From Hexactinellida sp. DTS-2022 (lineage: Eukaryota; Porifera; Hexactinellida), in contig JAPNXP010000010.1 of the NCBI GenBank assembly GCA_028753945.1, positions 3,103,042 through 3,167,041 on the forward strand: a stretch of DNA of 64,000 bases. The letters run 5' to 3'. The translations under genes were made by a program, and so were the position numbers. Numbering within the stretch: the first letter of the stretch is position 1; every line of letters begins with the position of its first letter. The notes below the pieces were generated by a model. It saw nothing but the letters and a program-made list of their open reading frames with translations. It searched no databases and was not told the origin of the DNA. This document shows, in pieces, positions 1 through 56,175 of this stretch.

Positions 1-352
1 ATTTTTGGTAGTTTAGTAGCTGACCCTTGAGTAACAGTCATTAAATGTTCACCGATGATGTGATGTGTGGTATCCTGAGTTTCCTGTGCTTTCCGTTTAA
101 TCCCTGTTTTAGTTTCGAGACAACTCACTGCGATCATATCCAGTCCATGGAGGTGCTCGTTTGTTCTCTTCACTATAATCATACCCTTAGTGTGCAATCT
201 TGCTTTGCACTCACCTTTTTTCTCACATTGCCAATGAGTAACATCACTACAGATTCTTTGTTTTCGAACACAAAACCTCCTTCAATTAGTTTTTGCCCTC
301 CTCTGCTTGACTTGATAAGCTTAAATTCAACTATATCCTGATTTGTTGCCAT
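1..352 (-). pseudogene. FLYWCH zinc-finger N-terminus of a MULE-type transposase (partial, runs off the left edge)
   Basis: An ATG at 352 opens a minus-strand frame that reads as a FLYWCH zinc finger: an initial FKLIKSSRGG block, a GFVFEN block, then after a one-base frame change near 235 the finger core HWQCEKKGECKARL and the closing EHLHG. The tail up to the window edge (KRKAQETQDTTHHIIGEHL) looks like the linker that follows this finger in MULE transposases. FLYWCH fingers commonly form the DNA-binding N-terminus of such enzymes. The catalytic core would lie to the left of position 1, so its state is unknown. The tandem-repeat end at 709-826 is the expected 5' terminus of the same element. 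The frame change could be a mutation or a sequencing error. Confidence is good for the finger, moderate for the MULE assignment. Confidence 0.7.
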
Positions 353-708
353 TGGTTGAATTTGCTTATATGTACGTACAAAGCTACAGAATATTCACTA
401 TTTATGCATTTCTCCTAGAACTATCTTTACATTTACAATAACTTGTTGAAGTTAGAAGACCGGGAATCTGAAACATAATTCCAGTGTACTGAAGGTGTTA
501 TAACATCCAAATATCAATTCACACCTCCGGGTAAGTCGACTTTACAATAACAACTCATTTACTTCAAGCAGAGTTACTTTCATAGGCAACCTATAGAGTT
601 TCTACAGGGTGTGGCTCATAGGATCTATACCATTATATAATTCTTCATATTATTACTCAATATTTCATTAATTAAACTGGATTATCCCTCGTTAATTACA
701 TATCAAAA

Positions 709-826
709 AAATTCGTACCGAACTGTCCTGTACCTAACTGTCCAGTATCGAATTGTCCGTGTACCGAACTGTCCGTACCGAATTGTCTGTACCGAAATGT
801 CCATGTACCGAACAGTCCGTATCCCC
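709..826. repeat. Minisatellite forming the MULE terminus
   Basis: About seven degenerate copies of a 14-16-base unit related to GTACCGAACTGTCC. Short frames here (696-893 minus, and the end of the frame that begins at 1402) are translations of this repeat and not genes. Confidence 0.8.
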
Positions 827-2344
827 TTTGCAGATGTAGGAGACCACTTTCATTGAACCTGCATCTAAGTGATAAATTAGTAACATGAACCACCTAAACA
901 CACAGAGGTAGCTATGCAATGGTGAGGCAGATAGGATGTTAATATCTGACATTGGAAGATGAGTTAAGCCATATCTCATCTCGTAAGGAAGCTTCAAAAA
1001 TTCTTCTTCATTAACATCGTTGAAAATGTCGATTGCATCTTTCACATGCCTATTTATAGGATAGCCACACTCAAACAACTCCATGTCTTTAAGTTGCTCT
1101 CGAGATGCTGTACATAGCTGACAAGATGCACCTCCAGCTCCACTTAAAAAACCGGACATTTTACCGTCGAACATAGTTCTCTTCACTTTGACGTTCACAT
1201 GACCTTGCAAAAGGTCTAAACCAATTGTTTCCAGGATATGAGTATCTGGGTTAATCAATTTATCCATTAAGTAATGAACATTCTCCAGATTTTCCTTCTG
1301 AGCAACTAATGCTATTGGCCTTGTTACAAGGGTGAATTTGGAGAAGGATTGGTCCAACTTTCGTTTCCTGTTTTGTCGACTAAAGCAAAGCTTTAAATGC
1401 AAAAAGGATAAAGGATTTGGTCGAGAGATTCGAATTAGTTGGTGCCTGGTTATAGATTCGATGAGATCCTGAGCCGTCTAAGCCATCAGCTATGGTTAAG
1501 GTAATCGGAAACTGAAATTCTTGAGGGACAGGGTTGAGTGCTAACAATCGTTCAGTAGTGATACTAACCAACTTTGAATATGGTATGTCGACACCAATTG
1601 CAACTCCATCTTCATTGTGTAACATTTCCATACAATTAGCTGAAGCTATGTCATTTCTGTGTGCAGCAACTCTTGCATACCCAGGAAATCGTATTTCTTC
1701 GGACTTGCAAATACGGCGTAGGTCAGTGTATTTTTTATTTCCTATTTCGAGGAGATCAATCAGAAAGGCCGCTTTCTCTAATGGAAACTCTTTCGTTTGG
1801 TTCCCTACATTTCCACTTGCAATTTGTTTGGAAATTATAGCAGACTCCCTATCATAACTTACATTGGAAATAGATTGTAATGCAAGAGATGCGATAGTCT
1901 TAGGGTCTGTATTCTCCCTATCAGCAAGAAAATAAATATGATTTAATAATACAGATAAATGTGTTCTAACTGATTGAAATGTGAGTTCTGAAATTGGTTT
2001 CCTACTGTCACTTGAACGAGATTCTACGAATGAAATAGAATTCAACATTTCACAATCAGATTTACGTTTTTGGAAGGGTTACTAGCTGCGGGATGATAGA
2101 AAGACATCTCTTCCCATGTGGTTAGGTCATTATTTCGGACAAATTCTCTACGAACACCTACCAAATCCTTAAATTTCTTGTTCAGGAGTGTGTATTCAGA
2201 TTCGGGTAAATCAAACAATTCTAGGATATTTCGAGTTGCTTTACGACAATTATCTTCGGAATTTTGAAGAAAAACTCTAGCTTCCTGATTATTCATAATA
2301 TGAAATAAATGATGAATGGAATGGTGTACTTTAGTTACAAGCAA
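827..2344 (-). pseudogene. RAG1L: RAG1-like (RAGL/Transib-related) transposase remnant
   Basis: Three overlapping minus-strand frames (2344-2042, 2048-1380, 1402-827) form one protein with two frame changes, near 2070 (an A run) and near 1390. The middle frame holds the KKYTDLRR and FPGYARV blocks, then DGLDGSGSHRIY with a candidate first catalytic Asp at codon 1487-1485, matching the RAG1/Transib DG...GSG(S/K)H-type motif. The C-terminal frame carries RPIALVAQKEN, FDGKMSGFLSGAGGASCQLC (a CxxC zinc pair near 1120, like CTLC of RAG1) and a PLHSY block near 920 followed by FRWFMLLIYHL. Where RAG1 has LHCD this copy reads LHSY, so the second catalytic Asp may be lost or lie elsewhere; I cannot align it exactly. 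The zinc-binding C-terminus with the catalytic Glu is missing because a MULE interrupts the gene at 827. RAG1-like cores cut DNA next to recombination-signal-like ends. No RAG2-like gene and no ends are visible. A plain Transib relative is the main alternative. Confidence 0.78.
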
Positions 2345-4007
2345 GATCTAAGTTTGAAATGTAAACAAATTCTGAATGAAATATATATACGTATATTGGG
2401 AAGATTAATGAATTCATATGATTGCGTATTAAAATATTGATTACTGCATAACAACAATTTGTAGCTATCGCTAGGCAACGCATGCACCATATAGCAATTT
2501 ACTAAAATTAATCACTAATTAATGTGCCAAATCATTGTATACCCATGTTTTATTTTAGTAATGAATATCAACTGTATTTCTAAGCTTGATCCGTTAATAA
2601 AAAGTGACAACCAATAATGAGTGATAATATGGGTACGCAACGAAAATCGGTGACACCCAATATGATATTTGAAAATAATACTTTAGTCATCTTTTGTCAA
2701 TCTGAAATGGTATTATTTTCATATTAGGATATCCAATGAATCATTTCATAATAAAAAGCTTTTGGTCCAGGATAGTCCAATACGTATAACTTTCTGATAT
2801 TTAGAATACGCAATCATCATATTTTATCTTCGGAGAATCCCTATGAATTAATACGTATAATTACAAAGCTAATTTTAACACACGAACCTGGAAAGAACTA
2901 GAAATGAAATTCAGAATTAGATGAGTCAATTCAAATGAAATGGAGTTCATAAGATCCAGTTATAATTCAAATTCAGATGATTTTATCTTGGCTCATTTTT
3001 TGAGAATTATTTTAGAAATCTTGTTATCATTTTACAGCCCCACTCGAATTGCTAGTGTATTACAACCAATCATAATATTAACAATAAAGTTCTGAATTAT
3101 TGGGGTTTCAATATTGCTCTTCACGATTTTGGAATCAATTCTTAGATTTGAGAGGATCATAAAAATTCCTATTCAGCCATATATTCCCACTTTGCTCCCC
3201 CCCCCCACCCCATTTTGCTGATTGGGGGGCTGGGGGTCACTGGGAGCGACCTCCCGGACCTTTCTGTGGATTTATTTTTTGTATGAAAGTGGTCCTTTTG
3301 ATCGACCAAGGGATAGAGGGTGAGAGTCACGTTTGTTTACTCAGTATATCCAGATTTTGTTCCTGAAGAAACAAATCTGGAAATATTTAGCAAACCTCCC
3401 AGTGCCCCCCCAAGACCCCCCCAAGACCCCCCCGAAGTGCCCCCCCCCCATCTTTGATTATAAGTTCCAAAACTTGACGCCTATGGGCAAAATCCACATG
3501 CATAAGTGCAAAATTATCTTTCCTTTTCTGGATGCATACGTGGCATCGTGATTCAATAGGTTCTTCATCACTGGATAAATCTGATTCTTCTATTTCTGAG
3601 TTTATTTGATCTGTTGATGTACTTAATATAGTTTTCTTCTCGCTTCCTATTGTTAAGGAAATGCAATTTATATACTCAAGGGGGTGCTATTATCTTATTT
3701 AAATATTTTGCTATGTATTTGGTTCGAAGGTCAGCATTTATACGAGTTATTAGTTTTGGCCCCCTCGTAATTTCTAACCCATTATCGTAACTTTTGATTT
3801 TCAAATCATGATCTGATAATACGTTATTCATGACCGTCATGAATTTCCAAATATTTGGATGGTTTATTTTAATTCACGACTATAACGATTTGTGGTATGA
3901 TTCAGCACCATTGCTTGTATTAATCTTGTAGTAAATACAGATAAACTTACACTCCCATCTATTCATGTTTTAGTAAATATTTCATAAAAGAATTAATAAG
4001 TCAGAAC
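2345..4007. other. Non-coding stretch with C-rich tracts
   Basis: No gene or recognisable element. It contains C/G homopolymer-rich tracts at about 3197-3240 and 3398-3455 (repeats of CCCCCCAAGA), which generate the short plus-strand frame at 3333-3551; I treat that as spurious. Confidence 0.6.
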
Positions 4008-27439: not shown

Positions 27440-28568
27440 GTATGCATTCGTCATTTCAAAGATGATATCGAAAGGACCATATCCTACGATGACGGGGTTC
27501 ATACTGTTACAATTTCCAGAGATAGAATAGCTCTGAAGAAGACAGCGGTACCCAGCATTTTTCCCAACTGTCCTTCCTATCTTTCTGAATTGAATTCCAA
27601 GCCAAAGAGACTATGCCTAGATGACAAAGACTGACTGCTGATGGAATCTGCATACTCCAAGAGCATAACTGACAACGAAGAAACGGTGGATAACTTCCTA
27701 GTTAATTCATATTCTGATCTTCTTTCTAAGCTAAATTTAATCGACCTACCAAACGGCTGGATAACTAATGTGTATAACAGCACCCCTTTATTTTTTACAA
27801 AAATCGTTATTTTAGAAACCGCACTTTTCATCGACCGATCTGTATTAGTTAACGATGATTTGTGCATCAAAGCATTTGATAATAAAAACGTCACCATTCC
27901 GATCTCGCGAATTTATATTAATGACACTCGCCAAGTTGAGACCATCCTCGATGAAGTAGATACATTTTCACACTTACTTCAAACTATTAACTCTCAAACT
28001 GAATGTTCTATTAACAACCAAATAAAACTTGCTATCCATGAACTCGAAAGTGCAATTAAGCTTGTTGATGGTGACTCGATATACCTAGACATAGATGATT
28101 TACATTGCAGTAGCGAATCTCTGAGTATTTCATTCCACTTTTTAGTTGGGAAACTGAGAAATTTGATAAACGCTAAAAGTCGTCGACGGTATGATATTTA
28201 ACTCAAGTATTTTCACTAAAATTCATGGAATATCACCTGCATGTTACCGACTTATTCAATCATCCAAATTGCTTAATCTTGCCTCACGAGAGAAATTTGA
28301 TTGGTATAAAAAACACTCTGGGTATTGAAGGTGATTACTTTCAAATTCTAAAGGAAATAACTTCCAAATTTAGCCATAGGGAACGCCATATGATACTTCA
28401 AATGGACGAAGTTCACATCCATAGTGATGCTTCATATATAGGAGGTAAAGTTTTGGGCGCCAGCGACAACCCTAGCGACTCCCAAATAACTGTTCTCAAT
28501 GATGATTTCCAGTCTTATGAAAAGGTTTTCCACCATTGTTCGTCTGATTCCGTTAGGGTCTTCCTCTA

Positions 28569-28750
28569 GTGGGGTCAAAAATTAAGATTCCGTGACCAAC
28601 CTCTGGATAGTTAAGTTTTATGCCTGATTCTGATACCTTAGGATATAACTCGCGATTTAAGCTCCCTTCCCGGTCTGGAAAGTTTGGGCAAACTTTTTTA
28701 TAGCGACAAATAGCCAGAGGTTGGTCACGGAATCTTAATTTTGACCCCAC
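28569..28750. mobile_element. TA-inserting MITE, GTGGGGTC family (182 bp)
   Basis: Inverted ends GTGGGGTCAAAAATTAAG, flanked by TA at 28567-28568 and 28751-28752. Removing the element with one TA restores the reading frame of the P-like transposase. A longer relative lies at 44436-44674. Confidence 0.92.
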
Positions 28751-31006
28751 TACTCCGCGGCTGATTTATATTCAATTATTAATAAAACAATTGGTGATAC
28801 AGAGAGTAGTGATTTATTTGTTGAGGCAATATGTACCGATAATTATCCTTTAAATGTCAGTGTATTTAATTTATTTTCATATGACGCGAAAATATTGCAA
28901 CCGCGAGTTGTACATCCATGTAACCCAACGCGGAACCTTATTTTATTCTTTGACATAGTCCGCATTATGAAATCAATTCGTAATAACTGGTTAAATTTAA
29001 AAGACTTTGAGAAAACATTTATTTATCCTGATTTTGAGACTTGCACCGATGATATTCCACTACCAGTAATCATACCATCTACTCAGCTTAAAGTTTCTAT
29101 ACCTGTTGCTAATATTATTTTGGATCCGAGGGAATTGACTAAGTCAAAATACCCTCCAATATGCTTTGCAGCATTTGACGACCTCAGAACCTTATTTAAA
29201 GCTGACAAATTTTCCATAATTAAGAGAGCCCCCAAACTAACATCAAAAGCATGTTGGCCATCTCATTTAGAGCGACAAAATGTAAACTTAGCTCTTAAGA
29301 TCTTTCTTGAATCAACAGCAGCGGGGCTCTCTAGTTTCTATAATGAGAATACAACAAATGAAAATCGCCATATCATCAAATTCATGCATTTGATAAATAA
29401 AATCTGGAACATTTTCAATGTTAATTGCGTCGGAAAAGATATTCACTTCAACAATCCAAATTTTGCTCCGCTTCGCTTGAACGATTTTTGGACCATGTAG
29501 TTAAATGGCTGGATTGTTGGAAATTACTTCCCACGTCTAGAGGGAAGCTTACACCACAAACATTCACTAGTTTTAGACATACTTGTATTGCCCTCCCTCT
29601 CTAAGTACAGAGATTGACCCTTGAAAGCGGTTTGAATATTTGCTGACGTCTCGAATACAAAATGACCCATTAGAACATCATTTTGGGCTTTATCGTCAAA
29701 TGCCTGGTTCAAACTATAATATATCTTACTGTCAAATCTTGGAAAGTAAACGTCGACTCCAATTAACTTATCTCCTCAAATTTTTTTACATAAATCAACA
29801 GTCTGATAAAATATCTCTTAAAGAATATTTGAAAGATTTTACACAGGAGAACGATGAAGAAATGCACCCAGAGTTTGATTTTGAGTATGTTACAAGTGAA
29901 ATACTTAACATTCCTAACCCTATATTTGATAATTCGAAAATTGAATGCCTAAATTACGTGGCTGGGTATGCAATCTTTTCGTACCATAAAAATTCTAAAG
30001 AATGTCGAGACTGCGAAGTTTTTTTAACATCTCCCAAAGATTTTCAAGTTTTTAACGACACCGGAATTCAATGATCGAATTCCTTGATAGAGGCTCACTT
30101 AAGTATCCATCTGAAATTATCTACCAATCTCTCATCATAATGTATGAAATATTTTTGAAAATCGATAACCATTCACATCCAAGCAAACTATTTTACGAGG
30201 GATCCTGCCGTCGGAATTTGGTTCAGTTGTCAATGTCACTTATTATTGTAGAAGAAAAGTATAGTGAAATATGGAGGCAATGGTTTGTTTGTATGATTCC
30301 AAAATTGGAAATTCTTAAAATTTTTATACTACTGTAGCTAATTGTATTTTATCGAAGAAGGTTAGAAACATTAATTCGATAGTTATTTGTCGAGACAATA
30401 GCAAACTTAAAAAATTCAGTACATAATTCTTCTAATCTTATAGATAGCTTCCTTACATGCCGATATACCAGTGCACATCTACTACCATCATTTGACTGTA
30501 TTCTCTACATTACTATCATTTAGACGAGGTCACGAGGAGCACCACTAACACATACAATCAAGCCGCTCATTCAGGACACATCGTAACCACATTCCCTCCC
30601 CCAGTCGTCATAGATGTACTACTGCCTAACTGCTCTTCTAGTAACTCAGACCACTATTCTATTAATTTAGCCTCATACTATGTATTATCTTTGATTGTTG
30701 CTTTTATACTTATTTTATGTTATGAATCGTATATATATAATATATTAAATACATTAAATATATACCCTTACAATTCGTAATTTTCTTAGAAGGGTGGTGG
30801 ATTATCAATTATTTCCCTTCACATTGATAGTCTACATTAATTTAGAGCTGTATTGGGATTTAGATCTAAAACCAAAGTAACTGACCTAACCAATCCCTGG
30901 TCCAAGTCCATCAATCAGCACCATTGCCTTATGTATAGAATGCTATGGTTTAAAATTTGGTAAACTAGAAAAAATTCGATCCAATATTTCAATGTGCTGC
31001 TGTCAG

Positions 31007-54447: not shown

Positions 54448-55827
54448 TTAAACATGTGCTGAGATAGCACGAATATATTCCTTCAGTGTAATAGTGTCCT
54501 GACGTAATCTGTTTTTCAAGATCTCTATTTTGTTGTCCTTCTCTATGTATTTCTTTGCCCTTTTGGGAGTCTGGGAGCCTATTGCAAGTTGAGCGATGGA
54601 AACTTCAGTATTCGCCTGCTCCTGTTTGAATATTTCAATTAATTCATAAACATTGGGGTGGGATTTTTTTGCGATACGTTTAAGCTTGTTATGCCAACCT
54701 TCAATGTGATTGTTGGTTCTTGGACTGTTGGAGTTTATTTCATATACATTCCATAAACCGAGAGAAAAATTACCCACCAGCCATGTTTCCTCAAAGTAGG
54801 TTATGAATTCATCAACTCTGTGTAGATTTGGGGCTGTTGCTTTTACCTCTTGCCAGGCTAAGCGTACATTTCGAACAGGTACAAAGGCAAGTGCTACTGT
54901 CTGCCGTATGAAACAACAGAAAGAAGCATCCTCCCGATATGCAATCTGAAGTCCAAGTTTCGATATTTTTCGATTCACTGCTTGAGTGAAATGAAAAAAA
55001 CACCCATTTACCTGTGAAGATGGAAACGTAAGCTCAATTGCCTGTATAATTGCTAGCTCAAAGTCTGTTAGGATTTCAGCTGGGCTCATTATGTATCCAA
55101 GGTTTCGGGATTTTTGCTTGACAAGCTCAAACGCTCGCAAATATATAGCACGGGATTTTCCAGGAAGTAGACTGTAAGCAAATGGGAATTGTTTCCCATA
55201 CTTCATAGAGTGTAGAGTAAATATCTGATTAAACAGTTTAGGACAAGTTTGAAATGTTCCATCAACGTAAATTTTCTCGGATTCTGAAAGATGTTTAAGG
55301 TTGTCAGCTGTTGAAAATATAATGATTTTATCATTCCCCTCTCCGTCTTCTGTCATCAAGAACAGCTCCCCAGCATGTGTTTTTGACCATTCTCCTTCAA
55401 AGTGAACTTCATCCCTAGACTTTGGAAGTGGTGGAAGTCTATTTCTTCTTATTCTATAGAGGGAGGACTTCATGGAGTAGAGTGTAGGTAATTTTGCAGC
55501 TACTTGGTCCATATTTTCACTAGCTGAGACTTCAACTAATTGTTGCTGATACACTGACGGTATTGGATCGATCGTTTCCTTTATTTTCGTCTTCATCATT
55601 TCTACTGCTTTGCAAGCTATCATCTCAGCTCTATCAGGTGGATGGGTATGCTCACCTGCTCTGCTTGATACAATCTCGCTTTTGATCGTTGTTAAACTTC
55701 CACTACAACTGCGACTCTTTGCACATCTCCAAAAGATACTATAATTCCGACCTCGCCTATTGATAACATACCTATAGCCCTCAAATATTAGCGAACGAGC
55801 GCCTCTGGTTGTTGTTACAAATTCCAT
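54448..55827 (-). CDS. MULE transposase, FLYWCH type, intact 459 codons
   Basis: Catalyses cut-and-paste movement of its element in the nucleus. Residues 1-65 form a FLYWCH zinc finger (FVTTTRGARSLIFEGY, FWRCAKSRSC with Cys35, Cys41, and HTH closing at His60/His62) for binding the ends. The DDE core runs from about 180 to 385: YVDGTF with Asp189, LTDFELA with Asp255, GCFFHF (Cys276, His279) and NNHIEGWHNKL with Glu376. A basic tail (PKRAKKYIEK, 421-430) may aid DNA binding or nuclear entry. The start ATG at 55827 immediately precedes the finger as expected, and no frame break or stop is present, unlike every other transposase in the window. It lacks the RING tail of the 25.7-32.2 kb MULE. Inverted ends surround it at 53669 and 56077, so the element may still be mobile; promoter and poly(A) signals were not identified. 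Confidence 0.93.
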   Translation of the reverse strand: MEFVTTTRGARSLIFEGYRYVINRRGRNYSIFWRCAKSRSCSGSLTTIKSEIVSSRAGEHTHPPDRAEMIACKAVEMMKTKIKETIDPIPSVYQQQLVEVSASENMDQVAAKLPTLYSMKSSLYRIRRNRLPPLPKSRDEVHFEGEWSKTHAGELFLMTEDGEGNDKIIIFSTADNLKHLSESEKIYVDGTFQTCPKLFNQIFTLHSMKYGKQFPFAYSLLPGKSRAIYLRAFELVKQKSRNLGYIMSPAEILTDFELAIIQAIELTFPSSQVNGCFFHFTQAVNRKISKLGLQIAYREDASFCCFIRQTVALAFVPVRNVRLAWQEVKATAPNLHRVDEFITYFEETWLVGNFSLGLWNVYEINSNSPRTNNHIEGWHNKLKRIAKKSHPNVYELIEIFKQEQANTEVSIAQLAIGSQTPKRAKKYIEKDNKIEILKNRLRQDTITLKEYIRAISAHV

Positions 55828-56175
55828 ATTGAGTCAAAGTTTGATAAGGCAAATACTCAACTGTTTAGTATTTATAAGATTAGTTTGATTAGAATCACCT
55901 CTGTGTTTTTTGCACTTGAGAACATAAACATGTTGTTAAACAATGCATTTCATTGAGCAGGCAAACCCACACAAATATTGATAACATAAAAATGTGTTAA
56001 ACAATGCATTCCATTGTGTAGGCGAAATGGCACTATTATACAATTAGTAGGCAAAATGGGAGTAGGCGAAACGGCACTAACCCTTTGAGTTATGGACCAG
56101 ACAAAATTTGAAAGGTGTAAAAAAAGTCCTAAATTTGTTAATCAAAAATTGTGACCCCAGGTGCACATCTGTAAC

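Follow-up and report, generated by a model that had tools for sequence, protein, structure and literature searches.

What kind of element does a broken RAG1-like transposase gene in a glass sponge genome come from: a RAG-like (RAGL) element, or another branch of the RAG1/Transib superfamily? The gene lies near the start of a 64,000-nucleotide stretch of the Hexactinellida sp. DTS-2022 genome (the window, C2:3103042-3167041 in an assembly of 112.4 Mb and 18 contigs, here C1-C18). Our comparisons indicate that it is very probably a copy, now dead and interrupted, of a cut-and-paste DNA transposon of this superfamily, of the RAG2-less Transib type, most like Transib Subgroup I, and derived from a large and recently active family. 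As we read it, the single locus is ordinary, a dead and nested transposon copy; the family is what is notable, being a Subgroup I-like Transib with consistently asymmetric ends that resemble recombination signal sequences (RSS).

The transposase and its catalytic residues

On the minus strand, a RAG1-related transposase gene with three frameshifts is represented by its 5' two thirds at window positions 3194-827. The first ~480 residues are encoded in four pieces within 2296-857 (Table 1), consistent with the protein of about 500 residues that the initial annotation had followed over three frames; the KYTDLR, FPGYARV, ADGLDGSGSH and CQLC blocks that it had named are also present. A homologue search with the joined pieces, in which scores were computed only for the 7992 candidates sharing most words, returned 121 proteins at E ≤ 1. 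The top match reached 1.8e-138 at 49% identity with the full query covered, and the three-frame protein match is far above chance. A source name accompanies 19 of the 120 listed homologues, and all 19 come from the glass sponge Oopsacas minuta, which by itself would suggest a hexactinellid host other than Oopsacas. Within the same genome, another locus is 95% identical to the middle piece across 226 of 228 residues. Searches with the raw reading frames were less informative: the 232-residue window open reading frame (ORF) alone gave no useful match in the PDB, Pfam gave two matches on three raw window ORFs, both sub-threshold, and NCBIfam gave sub-threshold matches only, on 3 homologues.

Residues were mapped from an L-INS-i alignment, in which the DDE triad and the Cys2/His2 zinc residues of the sponge proteins align with those of RAG1 and HzTransib. 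Mouse RAG1 D600, D708, C727, C730, H795, H937, H942 and E962 are kept in all 16 full-length sponge rows, and the window pieces hold the first five of these. The LHSY of the window, in place of LHCD in RAG1, had been taken as a possible loss of the second catalytic Asp. The alignment rules this out. Mouse D708 is the Asp of GYDEK, which aligns with FDGKM of the window, and the position is Asp in 41 of 41 aligned rows. LHCD is not the site of the second Asp; its His is H795, which LHSY retains.

Copies and ends of the sponge family

We searched the genome with piece 2, scoring the best 150 of 457 first-pass candidates and noting that some copies appear as two matches. At least 151 matches were found. 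The full copies that the initial annotation proposed to look for do exist: 13 matches lie in stop-free frames longer than 700 residues and give ATG-started ORFs of 708-751 residues, although one of these loci, L021, ends in unrelated sequence when read by eye. Loci L013 and L014 share 99.78% identity over 2784 bp; for L014 and L015 the figure is 99.09% over 3082 bp. The latter two have open frames of 710 and 708 residues and different target duplications, CATTT and TAGTA; L013 yielded no end pair with our end finder. Such copies point to a family that is large and recently active in this genome. Between subfamilies, nonsynonymous divergence (dN) was 0.24-0.43 and synonymous divergence (dS) was beyond estimation in five of five pairs.

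Transib ends start with CACWRTG and are accompanied by 5-bp target duplications. A search blind to the flanks identified 10 loci with inverted CACAGTG repeats and 5-bp duplications at the heptamer. A second finder, which accepts starts of the form CA[CAT]NNTG only, ranks in favour of equal flanks and was run with L038 excluded, returned end pairs for 19 of 32 loci; that of L037 arose by chance and is left out of the counts. End pairs of the CACAGTG type, which the initial annotation had proposed to look for together with 5-bp target copies, are therefore credited to 18 of 32 loci. The 5-bp flanks are identical in 14 of these pairs, agree at four of five bases in 2 and are unmatched in 2, with one pair (L020) having passed on account of its flanks alone. 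Of the 36 heptamers, 35 are CACAGTG and one is CACATTG. The flank-blind search recovered 10 of the 14 loci with exact duplications.

The ends are also bipartite. In 13 of the 18 pairs the gap between the heptamer and a second motif (~GGRAATAGG) is 9-10 bp longer at the 3' end than at the 5' one, as scored by a script that ruled out equal spacing; four pairs have no such motif and L020 gives a chance match (shift -19). Genome-wide, the pattern CACAGTGGN{5,19}GRAATAG occurs 319 times, versus 3 for the reversed pattern. With RAATAG as the second motif, the short form N{8,12} occurs 345 times and the long form N{17,21}, with its upper limit at N=21, 281 times, versus 4 and 5 for the controls. Pairing was evaluated on contigs C1-C4, where both lists are complete and hold 98 of the 345 short and 72 of the 281 long ends. 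Here, 33 pairs of neighbouring ends face inward at a distance of at most 6 kb. Of these 33, 32 combine one short with one long end, while shuffled labels gave a mean of 16.3 mixed pairs and a maximum of 26 in 2000 shuffles. Since several of the facing pairs belong to the same short families, the 33 do not count as independent. Most (28 of 33) span 0.4-2.3 kb, which would not accommodate the whole gene plus ends, and are therefore presumably non-autonomous elements. Elements of this size that combine a short and a long CACAGTG end are seen for example at C1:2191915-2193017 and C2:2986879-2988649.

The sponge heptamer equals the RSS consensus, and the arrangement of one short and one long end is reminiscent of the 12/23 rule. 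The distance from heptamer to RAATAG is mostly ~13 and ~22 bp among the matches listed, compared with 12/23 to the nonamer in the RAG system. Intact relatives encode one protein of ~710 residues with the RAG1 DDE site and zinc-binding Cys2/His2. By homology, a transposase dimer would join one short-spacer and one long-spacer end, nick beside CACAGTG, free the element via hairpins on the flanking DNA and insert it by a 5-bp staggered cut. The 5-bp duplications, the CACAGTG heptamers, the short/long pairing, the near-identical copies at different sites and the conserved catalytic residues are the parts of this scheme seen in the sequences themselves. PMC7204232 also gives 5-bp target duplications for Transib.

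Relationship to Transib and RAG1

The rival that survives best is that the window copy is the fossil of a true RAGL (RAG1L) element whose family lost its RAG2L partner, and three protein features lend it some weight. The N-terminal domain of the sponge proteins, in a profile that uses 14 of the first homologue alignment's 19 rows, matches the RAG1 nonamer-binding domain (NBD) at E 1.3e-5. The zinc-domain insert, counted from C730 to LH, spans 64-66 residues in sponge proteins, 63 in RAG1 and 59-66 in RAG1L, as against 16-29 in 12 rows of classical Transibs; the alpha11-alpha12 region was judged by this length alone. A loosened CCHC tail motif is found in 10 of 19 homologues, 8 of 14 ORFs from the genome itself and 23 of 42 RAG1L proteins, and in 0 of 70 classical Transibs. 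Classical Transibs (HzTransib, 6pqn; insect-type P0120-P0223) also differ at the N-terminus, where a profile from seven sequences (12 proteins tried, eight segments obtained) had no match to the RAG1 NBD. Three results argue against the NBD assignment. A single-sequence phmmer search with the RAG1 stretch gave nothing under E 0.85, the sponge profile finds none of 42 RAG1L proteins, many of which are fragments, and the NBD equivalent described for both Transib subgroups by Tao et al. 2022 was not recovered here for classical Transibs. A distant relative, P0224 (762 residues), has a zinc insert of 68 residues and, by eye, a CCHC tail; it may represent Subgroup I in a different host.

In unrooted trees the sponge proteins, the classical Transibs and RAG1/RAG1L form three separate groups. 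As the trees have no root, sponge and RAG1L proteins could still be sisters; given a root outside RAG1/RAG1L, the sponge rows fall outside that group in three of three trees (support 100/100), and on that condition we reject membership in it. Profile scores run the same way, at 161 bits for HzTransib versus 71 for amphioxus RAG1L. The claim of a RAG1-like transposase therefore holds as far as relatedness to RAG1 and alignment to its core are concerned, but not for RAGL membership, the protein being probably Transib-type. No RING was detected by Pfam in 9 homologues. A RAG2-like neighbour, which the initial annotation had considered, was not seen: the 11 elements with intact frames contain no other ATG-started ORF longer than 99 residues, introns not considered. 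Pfam RAG2 searches of the whole genome gave no match, and their controls were equally silent. On balance we regard a RAGL fossil as unlikely.

The sponge family is instead very probably a new lineage of the already known Transib type. According to Tao et al. 2022 (PMC9435367), Subgroup I Transibs are defined by the alpha11-alpha12 region, which is the RAG2-binding region, together with CTT1 and asymmetric terminal inverted repeats; an NBD equivalent occurs in both subgroups, Subgroup I hosts include ctenophores, with a Transib-9 from Hydra, and hundreds of further metazoan Transibs are mentioned. The words sponge and Porifera are absent from the main text of that paper. The sponge family shares with Subgroup I the single RAG1-like gene, a zinc insert of alpha11-alpha12 length, a loosely spaced CCHC-type tail in part of its members and asymmetric repeats. 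It departs from the published description in its host, its many copies and a CCHC tail that is absent or differently spaced. Kapitonov and Koonin 2015 (PMC4411706) give one or a few copies for autonomous Transibs. Vertebrate RAG1 and RAG1L/ProtoRAG share the catalytic core and zinc-insert length with the sponge proteins, and vertebrate RAG1 the NBD-like domain as well; they are set apart by the tree group, the RING and RAG2L. A term search of the main texts of the Oopsacas and Aphrocallistes genome papers found neither Transib nor RAG1, and no paper on Transib in sponges was among the literature matches listed, subscription papers and Repbase lying outside that scope. Among GTDB species genomes, the first homologue alignment gave 16 pattern stretches and no relatives by tblastn, a weak negative because only two peptide patterns were used.

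Several observations weigh against a Subgroup I-like, recently active Transib family. The likeness to Subgroup I concerns traits taken from its published description, and the published CCHC spacing, Cx2Cx3GHx4C, occurs in 0 of the 14 ORFs from the genome, several of the eight with the loose motif being near-identical. Pfam RAG1 misses 3 of 9 homologues. The placement of the sponge rows beside Transib comes from midpoint rooting and profile scores only. Long-branch meeting was flagged for mouse RAG1, although removing that sequence left the groups unchanged. The finder returned no end pair for 13 of 32 loci. Constraint is weak in close pairs, with dN/dS of 0.68 and 0.55, and two close pairs with 3 differences have dS 0; it is therefore visible over the longer term only.

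Two further alternatives fare worse. A different DDE superfamily (hAT, P element, CMC/Chapaev) that merely resembles RAG1 is very improbable. Least credible is a domesticated RAG1-like host gene, for which the 13 long open frames and the between-subfamily dN and dS values could be cited, against the many copies, terminal inverted repeats, target duplications and near-identical copies at different sites, and a window copy that is itself broken and interrupted.

With a Transib-type family as the preferred reading, we tentatively propose, as a suggestion we would not yet favour over its negation, that glass sponges keep a high-copy, recently active Transib-type lineage already equipped with most of the features on which vertebrate RAG1 relies: a RAG1-type NBD, the zinc insert with which RAG1 binds RAG2, an exact CACAGTG heptamer and bipartite ends nearly always paired short with long. 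If true, a transposon without RAG2 already followed the logic of the 12/23 rule, and had the DNA-binding domain that goes with it, before the acquisition of RAG2. Since long, stop-free copies are at hand along with many shorter elements bearing the same ends, the joint working of paired ends and NBD before RAG2 is testable, and the end pairing is itself a countable statement on an early 12/23-like rule.

Termini of the window copy and neighbouring features

The heptamer at the 5' end of the window copy has decayed to CAAAGTG, versus CACAGTG in sister copies; the 3' terminus is a CACAGTG at C2:3097311, and a G/C tract adjoins both termini. The boundary at 827 is exact, base 826 being the end of another transposon whose inverted other end lies at C2:3098246. 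This insert of 5.6 kb (C2:3098246-3103867) divides the window copy, with GGGGATACGG inverted at both of its ends and TGCAAA flanking both sides. Beyond it, residues 477-706 of P0001 match locus L042, the 3' part of the window copy, which reads LHKLLAHS and SEESIESLNK and has no CCHC tail at its end. Because of the three frameshifts, the split gene and the mutated 5' heptamer, we judge the window copy to be dead, its gene incapable of making an enzyme.

Table 1. Transposase, transposon and repeat features in the window
Feature	Position	Strand	Basis
Transposase piece 1, N-terminus MNNQEARVF...	2075..2296	-	ORF reading
Transposase piece 2: nonamer-binding-like domain, next RAG1-like region, first catalytic Asp	1386..2069	-	profile and alignment
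Transposase piece 3: short third-frame stretch, ...GNESWTNPSPNSPL	1327..1380	-	ORF reading
Transposase piece 4: second catalytic Asp, CQLC, long zinc-domain insert, PLHSY	857..1327	-	alignment
KYTDLR	1733-1716	-	
FPGYARV	1688-1668	-	
ADGLDGSGSH, first catalytic Asp, aligned with RAG1 D600	1490-1461	-	alignment
FDGKM, second catalytic Asp, aligned with D708	1171-1157 (D codon 1168-1166)	-	alignment
CQLC, zinc Cys pair (C727/C730)	1123-1112	-	alignment
PLHSY (H795)	922-908	-	alignment
5' part of the dead, probably Transib-type element; 5' terminus 3194, cut at 826/827	827..3194	-	sister-copy homology starts 3191-3195
5' terminal inverted repeat: heptamer CAAAGTG 3194-3188, 7 bp, second motif ATGGCTGAATAGG 3180-3168	3168..3194	-	
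Intruding transposon, one end; terminus GGGGATACGG at 826, GTACCGAACTGTCC tandem units 715-821	1..826	.	
6-bp target duplication TGCAAA of the gene-splitting transposon; second copy at far end, in L042	827..832	.	read by eye

Within the insert, L038 matches part of L027 at 95%, and a short-spacer end of the family lies at C2:3098811. A further family copy on the other strand (C2:3098811 to ~C2:3102322) thus appears to sit inside the intruding transposon, making three nested elements. Sister copies of the window element, missed by the second finder, are L034, L035 and L036 on contigs C11, C12 and C18. Their sequence and flanks are identical where printed and their repeat spacing is equal, as if they were part of a larger duplicated or mobile stretch; each has CACAGTG at its two ends, with AAATG flanking either side when read by eye.

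Elsewhere in the window, a 188-residue ORF at 27635-28201 has no domain match. Next to it, a 251-residue ORF at 28745-29497 on the plus strand gives a sub-threshold match to a TNP-like GTP-binding insertion domain (23.6 bits, cut-off 24.8) and is perhaps a P-element-like remnant. The 461-residue ORF at 54451-55833 on the minus strand carries FLYWCH (E 5.5e-11) and MULE transposase (E 1.6e-13) domains and apparently encodes a MULE-type transposase.
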